Assembly: GCA_020723405.1 (NCBI GenBank)
Contig: DYIY01000003.1
Span: 62,001-126,000 of the forward strand
DNA: 64,000 nucleotides
Direction: 5' to 3'
From: Thiobacillus denitrificans
GTDB taxonomy: Bacteria; Pseudomonadota; Gammaproteobacteria; Burkholderiales; Thiobacillaceae
Shown here piece after piece: positions 24,869 through 28,399 of this stretch. The translations under genes were made by a program, and so were the position numbers. The notes below the pieces were generated by a model, which was not told the DNA's origin, did no database searches, and worked only from the letters and a program-made list of their open reading frames with translations. Positions within the stretch are counted from its first letter, which is position 1. Each line of letters opens with the position of its first letter.

Positions 24869-27277
24869 TTAGCCCCGAGCCCCGCCGGACACGGTGATCA
24901 CCGCGCCCTTGCCGGCGTTGCCGCTGCTGCCCGTGACCTTGGCCAGGGGCATTTCCGGCTTCTCGATACCCTTGTTGGCCCAGGCGCTGGCGCCCATGCT
25001 CCGGCCCTCGCCCCGCAGGGTGACATTGCGGCCCTGGGCCCAGCGGCCCTCGGTGCCGGTGACCCGGCCACTGCGGGCCCAGTCGTCACCGGTGATGCGG
25101 GCGCCATCGTCCCGGCCTTCGCCGGTGATGCCGCGGGCCGGCGGTTCCGGAACCGGCGCGGCAGCCGGGGCGGGGAAGGCGCCGAAACCGATGCGGCTGT
25201 CGTTGTACCCCTCATCGCGGTAACGGAACTCGGGGGTGCCGGACACCAGGCCGGAGGCCATGTTCACCGGACCGGTGATCCGTCCGGCGCCGCCGTAGCC
25301 GGTGCCAGTGATGCGGCCGAAGGATTCCCGCGCCGGAGAAGAGACGCTGAAGGCTTCTGGCCGGGGTTCGGCAGCCCGCATGCTCATGGCCATGGCCCGG
25401 GGACGCGCAGTTGGCGCTGTGTGAGGCTGGAAACGGGGATGGGCCTGGAGGGGGCTGGCCTGGACTGCTGTGGCTTCGAGCTGGTAGGCGCCCATCACCT
25501 GCTCGCTGGCAGCGTAGGGCGTGCCACTGATGGCCAGGTGGCTGCCCGGTTCGTCGCCGGTCACCCGCCCACCCCGACCCAGGGGCGTACCGGACACGGT
25601 CTGACCGAAGAGGGTATGCGTCACATCCACCTTGGCGACGGCAGGCACGGGTGCGCTGGTGCAGACGGCGCTGCCGACCTGCTCGATCCCGGTGACGCGC
25701 TGGCACCCGCCGTGCTCGTCACCGGTCAATTTTGGGAGTGTTGTGCCCCCGGCTCGGGATGAACCACCGAGCCGCCCCCCGAGGGGGCCAAGCCGTTCTT
25801 GGGGCGGCCCGGCGAACGGCTTGTCAGCCCCCGCCATGACGCCGGTCATTCGGCTACCGGCCAGGGTACGGGCTTCCCGCACCTTGGCCGGCGCTTCGCC
25901 CCGGGTTGCACCCCGCTCGTATTGGGAACCGGTGATCCGCCCTTCGGCCCGGGGCTCGTTGCCCGTGACCTTGCCGGTGCGCTCCACCAGGTTGCCGGTG
26001 ATGCGCTGGCCCGCCTGGCTGGCGGCCTCGCCCACCTTGGCCGGCCCCGCTTCCGGGCGGGTGCTGCACACGCTCTGGAACTGCTCGGTGGACAGGTATT
26101 CGGTGCCGGAGATGGCACGGCAGGAGCCGGCCTCGTCGCCCGTCACCTTGATGGAGCGGCCCACCTCGATGCCGGACACGGGACGGCCGGCAATCGTATG
26201 GGTGAGGGCCACCTTGCTGGGACCGTTGATGGTCAGGCGGGACACGCCGGCATCGTTGTATTGCGAGCCGGTGATGCCCCGCGCCGCGCCGGCTTCACCG
26301 CCGGTGACGGCCACGGGCCGGGCTTCGTCGCTGCCGGTGACAGACAATCCCTTGCGGGCGGTCATGCCCATGGGGGCTTTTTCCGGACGATCCGTCATGC
26401 CCTTGCCGGCGCAGAACTCGGCGAAGTTTTCGCTGCCCAGGTATTCGGTGCCGGTGACCGGCTTGCAGGTGCCCGCCTCGCCGCCGGTGACCGTGACGCT
26501 GCGTCGCACCTCGGTGCCGCTGACGATCTGGCCCCGGCCGGTGGCGCTGGCGCCCACCTTGGCCGGCGCGGGGGCCGGCTTGGCGGCGCAGAAGCCCTCG
26601 AACTGCTCGCTGCCGATGTACTCGGTGCCGGTGATGGCGCGGCAGGTGCCGGACTCGTTGCCGGTGACCTTCACCGTGCGTTCCACCTGGGTGCCGGTCA
26701 CGGTCTGGCCGGACAGGGTGGTACCGGTTTCCACCTTGGCGGGGGCCTCCGCCTCTGGGCGCACCCGGCCCGAGGGACGGGCGGGAGGCGCGTCGCCCCG
26801 GCCCTTCAGGCTTTGCTCCAGGCGGCGCTGGCGGGCTTCGGCCTGGCCGTTGCCGTTGGCCCCCTGGGGCGCGCTGCCGGGGCGGGCCGTCGGCTTCATG
26901 GCGGCCTTGCCCTGGGAAGAGAGGGCCTGGCGGCGCTGGCGGCAGTAGTCCCGCATGCTGGTTTCGTTGGCCTCCGCCAGGGCCAGGGCCGGGGCCTGCT
27001 CCACCACGGCACAGGCGATGTTCATGGCAACATCCTCCAGGGCCACTTCCTCGACAATGGCCGGCGCAGCCTGGGGCGCAGCGGCGGCAGGCATGGCCAT
27101 GGCAGTGGACCCCGACGAAGTGGGCACAGCGGCGCGCTGGCTGGCGGCCACACTCTGCCGGGTCACCAGGCCGATGCCCTTCTTCCCGGTCTGGGACAGC
27201 ATGGCCCGCCGGGCCCGGGCCAGTTCCTTGCCACTCAAGCCCGCCAGGGCATCGGGTTCCGCAGTCAGATCAGACAT
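24869..27277 (-). CDS. csoS2: Carboxysome scaffold CsoS2 (full-length form CsoS2B; frameshift form predicted)
   Basis: 802-aa disordered scaffold joining RuBisCO to the shell. N-domain (1-~165): three basic helical motifs (KELARARRAMLSQTGK, CRQRRQALSSQGK, ARQRRLEQSLKGRG) of the RuBisCO-binding type. Middle region (~170-560): repeats with VTGTxV...VTGxExGxC...TGTEYxxxEQF. C-domain with VTGT/ITGD pairs, ending KVTGSSGNAGKGAVITVSGG, the shell-binding peptide. A palindromic element is inserted in frame at about residues 485-510. A -1 slippery site at codons 515-516 predicts a 519-aa CsoS2A. It is the first gene of the operon; normally cbbL and cbbS precede it, but here they are absent. Confidence 0.95.
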   Translation of the reverse strand: MSDLTAEPDALAGLSGKELARARRAMLSQTGKKGIGLVTRQSVAASQRAAVPTSSGSTAMAMPAAAAPQAAPAIVEEVALEDVAMNIACAVVEQAPALALAEANETSMRDYCRQRRQALSSQGKAAMKPTARPGSAPQGANGNGQAEARQRRLEQSLKGRGDAPPARPSGRVRPEAEAPAKVETGTTLSGQTVTGTQVERTVKVTGNESGTCRAITGTEYIGSEQFEGFCAAKPAPAPAKVGASATGRGQIVSGTEVRRSVTVTGGEAGTCKPVTGTEYLGSENFAEFCAGKGMTDRPEKAPMGMTARKGLSVTGSDEARPVAVTGGEAGAARGITGSQYNDAGVSRLTINGPSKVALTHTIAGRPVSGIEVGRSIKVTGDEAGSCRAISGTEYLSTEQFQSVCSTRPEAGPAKVGEAASQAGQRITGNLVERTGKVTGNEPRAEGRITGSQYERGATRGEAPAKVREARTLAGSRMTGVMAGADKPFAGPPQERLGPLGGRLGGSSRAGGTTLPKLTGDEHGGCQRVTGIEQVGSAVCTSAPVPAVAKVDVTHTLFGQTVSGTPLGRGGRVTGDEPGSHLAISGTPYAASEQVMGAYQLEATAVQASPLQAHPRFQPHTAPTARPRAMAMSMRAAEPRPEAFSVSSPARESFGRITGTGYGGAGRITGPVNMASGLVSGTPEFRYRDEGYNDSRIGFGAFPAPAAAPVPEPPARGITGEGRDDGARITGDDWARSGRVTGTEGRWAQGRNVTLRGEGRSMGASAWANKGIEKPEMPLAKVTGSSGNAGKGAVITVSGGARG
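25689..25736 (-). promoter_or_regulatory. Candidate -1 programmed ribosomal frameshift site in csoS2
   Basis: On the coding (minus) strand the heptamer C CCA AAA (25736-25730) is in the canonical X XXY YYZ phase, codons P515-K516. Four bases later a 9-bp stem CCGGTGACG / CGTCACCGG (25725-25717 and 25697-25689) encloses an inner GCAC/GTGC stem. Slipping back one base reads ATT GAC CGG TGA, so translation stops after three extra residues. This would make CsoS2A of 519 aa without the C-domain, as known for csoS2 in Halothiobacillus. Confidence 0.75.
25750..25822 (-). repeat. REP-like palindromic element inserted in frame in csoS2
   Basis: Contains two hairpins: GCCCCC-CGA-GGGGGC (25774-25788) and GCCGTTC...GAACGGC (25792-25798 with 25814-25820). 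The style matches G/C-run dispersed repeats of betaproteobacteria. It encodes about 25-30 residues (KPFAGPPQERLGPLGGRLGG) with none of the VTG/TGTE pattern and splits what would otherwise be a normal CsoS2 middle repeat. It ends just upstream, in translation order, of the slippery heptamer. Confidence 0.65.
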
Positions 27278-27427: not shown

Positions 27428-28399
27428 ATGCGCCTGCGCAATGTCACCCTCCACCAGTTGCGCCTGTTCCGCAGCCTGGGCACCCACCTCTCCTTCACCC
27501 GGGTGGCGGAAGAGCTGCACCTGACCCAGCCCGCCGTCTCCATCCAGATCAAGCGCCTGGAGGAAAGCGTGGGCCTGCCCCTGGTGGAACACATGGGCAA
27601 GAAGCTCTACCTCACCGACGCGGGGCGGGAACTGTTCGAGGCCAGCCGGGACGTGCTGGAACGCATGCGGGTCCTGGGGGAAGACATGACCGGCCTGGAG
27701 GAAGGGGTGCGGGGCCCCCTGCACCTGGCGGCCATCACCACGGCGAAATACTTCATGCCCCATCTCCTGGGCCATTTCCTGCGCGACTACCCGGCGGTGG
27801 AGCCGCGTCTGACCATCACCAACCAGGCCCGGGTGGTGGAGCGGCTGGAGAGCAACCTGGACGACCTGGTGATCATGGGCACGGTGCCGGAGAACATGGA
27901 CCTGGAGGCGGAGTTTTTCCTGGACAACCCCCTGGTGGTGGTGGCGCCGCCGGACCACTCGCTGGTGGGACAAAAGCACATCCCCCTGGCGCGCATCGCC
28001 GAGGAACGCTTCCTCTCCCGGGAACCCGGTTCCGGCACCCGCCAGGCCCGCACCCGGCTGTTCGCCCAGCACGGCCTGACGGCCAACACCTACATGGAAC
28101 TGGGCAGCAGCGAAGCCATCAAGCAGGCGGTGATGGCGGGCCTGGGTATCTCCGTGCTGTCCCGCCACAACCTGGCCCTGGAGCTGGAATCCGGCCGCCT
28201 GGCCATCCTGGACGTGGAGCACTTTCCCCTCATGCGCCAGTGGTATGCCGTGCACCTGAAAGGCAAGAAGTTGTCGCAAACCACCCGACGCTTCCTGGAC
28301 TTCCTGCTCCAGGACGGGGCCCGCATCTGGCAGGAGAGCCAGCCCCATTTCCGGGTCGCTGTGCCCAAGAGCGGGAGGAAAGCGGGGGGCAAGGGATGA
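27428..28399 (+). CDS. cbbR: LysR-type regulator CbbR of the carboxysome operon
   Basis: 323 aa. N-terminal winged helix-turn-helix (LHQLRLFRSLGTHLSFTRVAEELHLTQPAVSIQIKRLEE) and a C-terminal substrate-binding-type effector domain (ITTAKYFMPHLLG, DDLVIMGTVPEN, GSGTRQARTRLF, LGISVLSRHNLALELESG), the usual CbbR layout. CbbR activates Calvin-cycle genes in response to metabolites such as RuBP or NADPH. It is divergent from csoS2 across a 150-bp region containing a 30-bp palindrome. A paralogue is encoded at 48933. Confidence 0.9.
   Translation: MRLRNVTLHQLRLFRSLGTHLSFTRVAEELHLTQPAVSIQIKRLEESVGLPLVEHMGKKLYLTDAGRELFEASRDVLERMRVLGEDMTGLEEGVRGPLHLAAITTAKYFMPHLLGHFLRDYPAVEPRLTITNQARVVERLESNLDDLVIMGTVPENMDLEAEFFLDNPLVVVAPPDHSLVGQKHIPLARIAEERFLSREPGSGTRQARTRLFAQHGLTANTYMELGSSEAIKQAVMAGLGISVLSRHNLALELESGRLAILDVEHFPLMRQWYAVHLKGKKLSQTTRRFLDFLLQDGARIWQESQPHFRVAVPKSGRKAGGKG

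Follow-up and report, generated by a model that had tools for sequence, protein, structure and literature searches.

Predicted −1 frameshifting in csoS2 of Thiobacillaceae: a site of known type and a second, candidate site in a sister clade

The stretch of DNA that was analysed here, 64,000 nucleotides (nt) of contig DYIY01000003.1 (assembly GCA_020723405.1, listed as Thiobacillus denitrificans, family Thiobacillaceae) and called the window below, carries the carboxysomal gene csoS2, which runs over 2409 nt from ATG to TAA and whose identity is supported by its PF12288 matches and by a C-terminus that reads SGGARG (Table 1). An earlier note on this DNA had described a complete −1 programmed frameshift signal in the gene, and each of its elements was recovered from the sequence. 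The heptamer C CCA AAA, which is of the X XXY YYZ type, lies in zero-frame phase in a late M repeat and is followed after four bases by a hairpin of 9 base pairs (bp), while the −1 frame reads PKIDR from the heptamer and then stops, which gives a predicted product of 514 + 5 = 519 amino acids beside the 802 of the full frame. The minimum-energy fold of 87 nt includes the 9-bp stem and reaches −39.2 kcal/mol compared with −32.6 ± 3.1 kcal/mol for shuffled sequences (z-score −2.1; 7 of 200 shuffles were equally good). Based on a comparison with the csoS2 genes of other bacteria, it is very probable that the window holds a working −1 frameshift site of the Halothiobacillus type and that a sister clade, which lacks this site, uses one of the dnaX type to yield two isoforms.

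Table 1. Features of the csoS2 region; positions are those of the window.
Feature	Position	Strand	Basis
csoS2, 802-amino-acid zero-frame product (CsoS2B)	24869–27277	minus	open reading frame and PF12288, three stretches, best E 3e-68
Slippery heptamer C CCA AAA, codons 515 (CCA) and 516 (AAA)	25736–25730	minus	zero-frame phase read directly
4-nt spacer before the 9-bp stem (6 nt to the conserved 7-bp core)	25726–25729	minus	
5' arm CCGGTGACG of the predicted stimulatory stem	25725–25717	minus	
3' arm CGTCACCGG of the predicted stimulatory stem	25697–25689	minus	
−1 frame stop TGA, within the 5' arm, after Pro-Lys-Ile-Asp-Arg	25721–25719	minus	
In-frame 84-nt insertion (28 codons), palindromic GC-rich repeat, ends 2 nt before the heptamer	25739–25822	minus	alignment with L070
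Divergent LysR-type regulator, upstream of csoS2	27428–28399		PF00126/PF03466

The earlier note had cautioned that the stem lies in TG-repeat codons, which tend to pair by chance. For the stem alone, this caveat is fair; the folding energy of the 45 nt 3' of the heptamer is −20.6 ± 2.5 kcal/mol (n = 75), compared with −16.5 ± 3.7 kcal/mol (n = 308) for similar repeats at other places in the same genes, but 44 of the 308 reach the mean of the site. It is overridden by the choice of codons, which we analysed in 146 csoS2 loci comprising 66 genes of the window's family (L006–L070 and the window) and 80 named loci; the latter were the best 80 of 557, ranked by likeness to the window's protein, and some of them duplicate records of the family genomes. 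The places that were compared were defined by the protein pattern PKx[TSH]G[DN] alone, which gave 100 distinct places. In the late M repeat, which lies 312 ± 18 residues from the C-terminus, C CCA AAR was found at 76 of 76 distinct places (C CCA AAA at 47 and C CCA AAG at 29), compared with 0 of 24 places at other repeats, none of which used CCA and only 4 of which had GGT, the glycine codon that is required for the −1 TGA. Elsewhere in the 37 family genes that have the site, CCA accounts for 5.3% of 2018 proline codons and GGT for 20.5% of 3920 glycine codons. The near-invariant part of the stem is the 7 bp GGTGACG/CGTCACC, which begins 6 nt past the heptamer and whose pairs are present in 67–68 of 68 distinct sequences (L062 and L147, with a loop 3 nt longer, were left out and 75 rows were reduced to 68), while the outer 2 bp of the window's stem are less conserved among these relatives. 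The observed-to-expected ratio (O/E) of synonymous change pointed to the same place. The site was the lowest window of the alignment in six Halothiobacillaceae/Guyparkeria sequences (O/E 0.08) and in 39 other named sequences (0.40); in 37 family genes (0.45), the only lower windows (0.17 and 0.39) cover the window's own insertion, and in 16 Acidithiobacillus-type genes (0.22) three windows at the N-terminal end were lower.

The possibility that the heptamer and the hairpin are functionless products of TG-repeat codons can draw on the other repeats whose folding energy reaches the mean of the site, on the modest z-score of the window's own fold and on the heptamer that occurs at 1 of 53 other PK dipeptides in the 37 family genes. 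We nevertheless regard it as highly improbable. The window site is not due to chance because the heptamer is present at every late repeat and at none of the matched motifs, and both the stem and the GGT codon are conserved across alpha-, beta- and gammaproteobacteria. As judged from these comparisons, the heptamer and the stem in the window are under selection as frameshift elements. Four named relatives (L081, L083, L084 and L102) weigh against this reading, as they keep the repeat and lack the canonical heptamer; two isoforms are thus not always needed. One of these four, L084, a metagenome-assembled genome of Chromatiaceae, reads CGA AAA where its close Lamprocystis relatives L085 and L086 read CCA AAA, so that L084 has either lost the heptamer recently or contains a sequence error. 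A separate observation concerns the loop of the hairpin, in which the codons GGG TGC (window 25703–25708) are near-invariant (each base in 61–68 of 68 sequences), although GGG makes up 7.6% of the other glycine codons in the 37 family genes. A simple stem does not account for this conservation, and a pseudoknot or a more complex fold is possible.

The window site belongs to a kind of csoS2 frameshift that is already known. In Halothiobacillus neapolitanus, slippage in the sixth M repeat, upstream of a 3' stem-loop, adds three −1 residues and gives 570 amino acids beside 869 (PMC5009743, PMC12918739, PMC11365436), with 50% frameshifting reported (PMC5009743). The window gene would likewise slip in a late M repeat, with a 3' stem-loop and three −1 residues; it differs in its heptamer, C CCA AAA instead of C CCA AAG, and in the 84-nt repeat that is inserted just upstream of it. 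In the Halothiobacillus locus L096 of our set, C CCA AAG is found at codon 567 of the open frame, with the same stem as in the window type; if the Met at frame position 2 is taken as the start, this corresponds to 570 of 869 amino acids, as in H. neapolitanus. The production of two CsoS2 isoforms by frameshifting has been described (PMC12918739, PMC12312397, PMC11365436), and a slippery sequence was reported in most proteobacterial csoS2 genes (PMC12312397). Carboxysomes of H. neapolitanus and Thiomonas intermedia were found to contain two forms of CsoS2 and those of Thiomicrospira crunogena and Prochlorococcus MED4 one (PMC4499774). The earlier note had presented the window copy as a betaproteobacterial case in which every element can be read directly; the site is real, but the copy is no special evidence, as frameshifting had already been predicted in 79 of 162 species with csoS2 (PMC5009743).

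In the window's organism, the GGTGACG/CGTCACC hairpin would make ribosomes pause while their P- and A-site tRNAs are paired with CCA AAA, and a fraction of the ribosomes would re-pair on CCC AAA, read three further codons and stop. The outcome would be a 519-amino-acid CsoS2A that lacks the C-terminal shell anchor, beside the 802-amino-acid CsoS2B. The comparison shows the sequence elements and the selection on them, while the slippage and its efficiency, which in H. neapolitanus is about half, are inferred. The site thus represents one more well-supported case of a mechanism that is already known. The matched control, in which the same amino acids are encoded by other codons, makes the prediction of frameshifting in csoS2 reliable.

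Among the 117 genomes of the window's family, 64 had PF12288 matches. The canonical site was found in 36 of these (37 loci, one genome having two), A AAA AAG was present instead in 27, and one had neither. The comparison of heptamer, spacing and −1 stop across related Thiobacillaceae that the earlier note had proposed bore out its reading for the gene type in the window; every one of the 12 genomes with csoS2 in the window's genus (the window's own included) has the canonical site. It is not universal in the family, as the 27 genomes have a different csoS2 with a different, putative site. Among the named loci, 62 of 80 carry it, and they comprise alpha-, beta- and gammaproteobacteria and acidithiobacilli, while the 18 without it include Thioalkalivibrio, Methylonatrum and some others, among them L148, which is the genome G111. 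The 99 loci were scored by the heptamer and a stop after exactly three further −1 codons, which makes this tally circular for those features; the non-circular test is the comparison based on the protein-defined PKx[TSH]G[DN] pattern. In a phylum-wide sample, csoS2 was present in 2 of 398 genomes, namely the window's own and one other of its family. One family genome, G089, bears two csoS2 genes (L032 and L053), one with the canonical site and one, with a 696-amino-acid open frame, with neither site. The csoS2 genes of T. denitrificans and other Thiobacillaceae were previously reported to lie in atypical loci, with cbbLS apart (PMC9164163); the word 'frameshift' is absent from the text of that paper.

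The 27 family genomes without the canonical site have a shorter csoS2, of 641–722 amino acids from the first Met (two incomplete copies excluded). About 300 codons into the gene, a PKKV repeat is encoded as CCA AAA AAG in 27 of 27, that is, with an in-phase A AAA AAG, even though CCA makes up 4.4% of the proline codons and AAA 21% of the lysine codons in these genes. Beyond Lys-Lys, the −1 frame stays open for 26 codons in all 27 (a tail of 28 residues with KK) and ends in TGA in 26 and TAA in one, the stop being retained over zero-frame Asp, Ala or Val. In the three genes for which it was computed, the predicted short isoform has 330, 332 and 337 amino acids. The tail peptide, e.g., KKGGNPSHERWRNGERHPTGSLIETFRR, is conserved across the tail-bearing genes; a search with it matched 27 of the 117 family genomes at E ≤ 5.1e-11, with the next match at 0.01. 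It is basic, with a computed isoelectric point of 10.8 and 11.4 for two variants, and has a Trp in every sequence shown. The 27 loci comprise 24 distinct sequences, and in 24 of 24 a GGG lies 9 nt 5' of A AAA AAG, although this is three G only and the gene is GC-rich. Two of the short-form copies are incomplete; that of G083 (L022) has an in-frame TAG and that of G070 (L031) is split across two frames, and these are either sequencing errors or broken genes.

A codon alignment of 25 short-form sequences, from which L022 and L031 were left out because of their incomplete frames, revealed a synonymous O/E of 0.255 over the 28 codons from the heptamer, which was the lowest of 643 windows; windows that do not start at codons 278–334 had a mean of 1.05 ± 0.13 and a minimum of 0.745. 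This trough covers the stretch from the heptamer to the −1 stop. Third-position diversity was 0.104 in the tail region compared with 0.34 and 0.39 in its two flanks, and the ratio of second- to third-position diversity was 1.2 there, while elsewhere its mean was 0.34 and its maximum 0.68. The pattern of replacement also favours the −1 frame, which is free of stops in the tail region and combines a mean BLOSUM score of +0.47 with a synonymous excess of 1.21. The corresponding values of the zero frame are −0.30 and 0.93, and the +1 (−0.54) and antisense (−0.90 to −1.11) frames contain stops and have excesses of 0.90–1.10. In ten control stretches, the synonymous excess was 0.33–0.67 in the −1 frame and 1.50–2.57 in the zero frame.

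A natural control was provided by L043 (G111), which belongs to the same clade and has near-identical zero-frame residues at two PKKV repeats, but encodes them as CCG AAA AAG and CCG AAA AAA. Both the conserved peptide and the stop are missing from its −1 frame. The −1 peptide is thus not dictated by the zero-frame protein, and L043 lacks the heptamer and the tail alike. In a tree of 121 rows, which was made by a quick method and whose root is arbitrary, the 25 tail-bearing rows and L043 formed one clade with an SH-aLRT support of 100. This clade apparently includes Thiobacillus denitrificans, and 23 of the 27 tail-bearing genomes belong to one genus. In one tail-bearing genome that consists of a single contig, csoS2 adjoins csoSCA, a CcmL-type pentamer gene and two bacterial microcompartment (BMC) genes.

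The trough in the sister clade could also reflect an RNA structure or regulatory element without any translated −1 peptide, which we consider improbable. Such an element would fit the 13-bp hairpin of this region, each pair of which is kept in 21–24 of the 24 distinct sequences, and the folding of L007 (z-score −2.8, compared with just −1.6 for L024). However, the trough extends past the hairpin on both sides to the heptamer and the −1 stop, this stop persists, in the form of TGA or TAA, whichever of three residues the zero frame has over it, and the replacements are conservative in the −1 frame and not in the other five. Another way into the −1 frame would be slippage of RNA polymerase on the run of six A, and the homopolymer CC AAAAAA G is indeed conserved in 27 of 27 genes. 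We consider this route an unlikely one, as six A is short for transcript slippage. The phase is exactly that of A AAA AAG, the E. coli dnaX site, and the GGG upstream falls inside the 9–14 nt range given for −1 Shine-Dalgarno stimulators (PMC5009743). Lastly, the −1 frame might be a small overlapping gene with its own start, as it is open for 26–294 codons upstream in seven of the eight genes that were checked. This we hold to be very unlikely; no ATG, GTG or TTG occurs in the open stretch of seven of the eight, while the eighth has a TTG 64 codons upstream, the −1 frame of L006 opens just 4 codons before the heptamer, and the trough does not reach upstream of the heptamer.

Several observations weigh against a translated −1 tail in the sister clade. 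The strong 13-bp hairpin starts 31 nt past the heptamer, which is beyond the usual distance of a stimulator, and near the heptamer there is merely a 3-bp GGT/ACC helix, with no stem-loop found within a few nt. The arms of that hairpin lie inside the constrained region, and RNA structure could explain part of the constraint. One antisense frame, with stops, also shows a small synonymous excess (1.10), and the mean pairwise identity in the tail region is 0.77–0.80 in the −1 frame, only slightly above the 0.74–0.77 of the other frames. Under a null model of codon resampling, the −1 frame is open that far with a probability of 0.61 per gene and has its stop exactly there with 0.13, so the open frame by itself is weak evidence. 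The conservation of the tail looks like one origin with many descendants and not like independent gains, and a search of the peptide against the PDB gave nothing informative, its sole match having an E of 0.95.

With these points taken into account, we think it likely that the csoS2 lineage of Thiobacillus and related bacteria, from which the repeat of the classic site is missing, has a second, unrelated −1 frameshift about 300 codons in, which would yield a far shorter isoform with a basic 26-residue tail that overprints the M-repeat sequence and is selected as protein. A proteobacterial csoS2 gene that appears to have a single product may thus make two by a different route, and the tail would be a new carboxysomal binding motif. 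Translation would pass the GGG 9 nt upstream, slip on A AAA AAG and read 26 further −1 codons to the stop, and the short isoform would end in a basic, Trp-containing tail that is under selection. The conserved −1 peptide leads us to predict that bacteria of the sister clade also make two CsoS2 isoforms. That the tail serves as an added motif for binding Rubisco or the shell is our guess; a Rubisco-binding role was considered from the N-terminus of CsoSCA (bound stretch PRLDLIEQA; PMC10614612), which the tail does not resemble by eye, and is thus a conjecture.

The sister-clade site resembles that of E. coli dnaX in its A AAA AAG and possibly in an upstream stimulator, for which the short GGG at a suitable distance is a candidate. 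The dnaX hairpin lies close to its heptamer, whereas in the sister-clade csoS2 the strong hairpin is 31 nt downstream, and here, unlike in dnaX, the −1 frame codes for a conserved 26-residue tail. A AAA AAG is known to be very shift-prone (PMC5009743). We found no report of such a site in csoS2 among the papers on csoS2 and carboxysome frameshifting that were consulted, which do not include the 2016 primary study (Chaijarasphong et al., J Mol Biol) and its list of predicted species. The two isoforms of CsoS2 recall those of the beta-carboxysomal CcmM, in which one gene gives two scaffold isoforms and the short form is without one binding end. The short form of CcmM arises by internal initiation and has lost the N-terminus; CsoS2A, by contrast, lacks the C-terminus, owing to frameshifting. 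Long and short forms of CsoS2 and CcmM have been likened before (PMC12312397, PMC4499774). The presence of another site in a clade that lacks the classic one would make it likely that the short isoform is of use there, and the conserved tail offers a direct handle on its role. The sister site would also be a compact bacterial example of a frameshift that exposes an overprinted, selected peptide, with L043 as its natural absence. Synonymous counterparts of the two heptamers are CCGAAG for the window site and CCGAAGAAG for the sister-clade site.

Two further candidates were considered in other csoS2 genes. Nine Thioalkalivibrio-type genes lack the canonical site, and in six close relatives G GGA AAG occurs at codons 510–521 with 17 open −1 codons; it was rejected since its 15-codon window is only mildly low (O/E 0.72; mean 1.00, standard deviation 0.17) and lower windows exist elsewhere. 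At a PKKV repeat of L092–L095 and L118 (Halothiobacillaceae/Guyparkeria), A AAA AAG is followed by 10 open −1 codons in a window of O/E 0.38 among six close sequences, and this candidate was dropped as L096 reads A AAA AAA there, with a −1 stop after one codon.

As for the surroundings of the window's gene, the open reading frames 3' of csoS2 resemble csoSCA, two csoS4 and three csoS1 genes, as recognised by eye from their list. The 84-nt insertion upstream of the heptamer is absent from the two nearest homologues, and its edges fall differently when it is aligned with L066. The same genome has a stretch that resembles it (83% over 44 nt) at about 1501–1546 of L005, inside an open frame that, by eye, codes for an hflX-like GTPase. 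Exact copies of the 15-base core of the insertion are confined to these two places, and a further eight match it with one mismatch (4 for the reversed control); the insertion looks like a repeat that is tolerated within genes as coding sequence.

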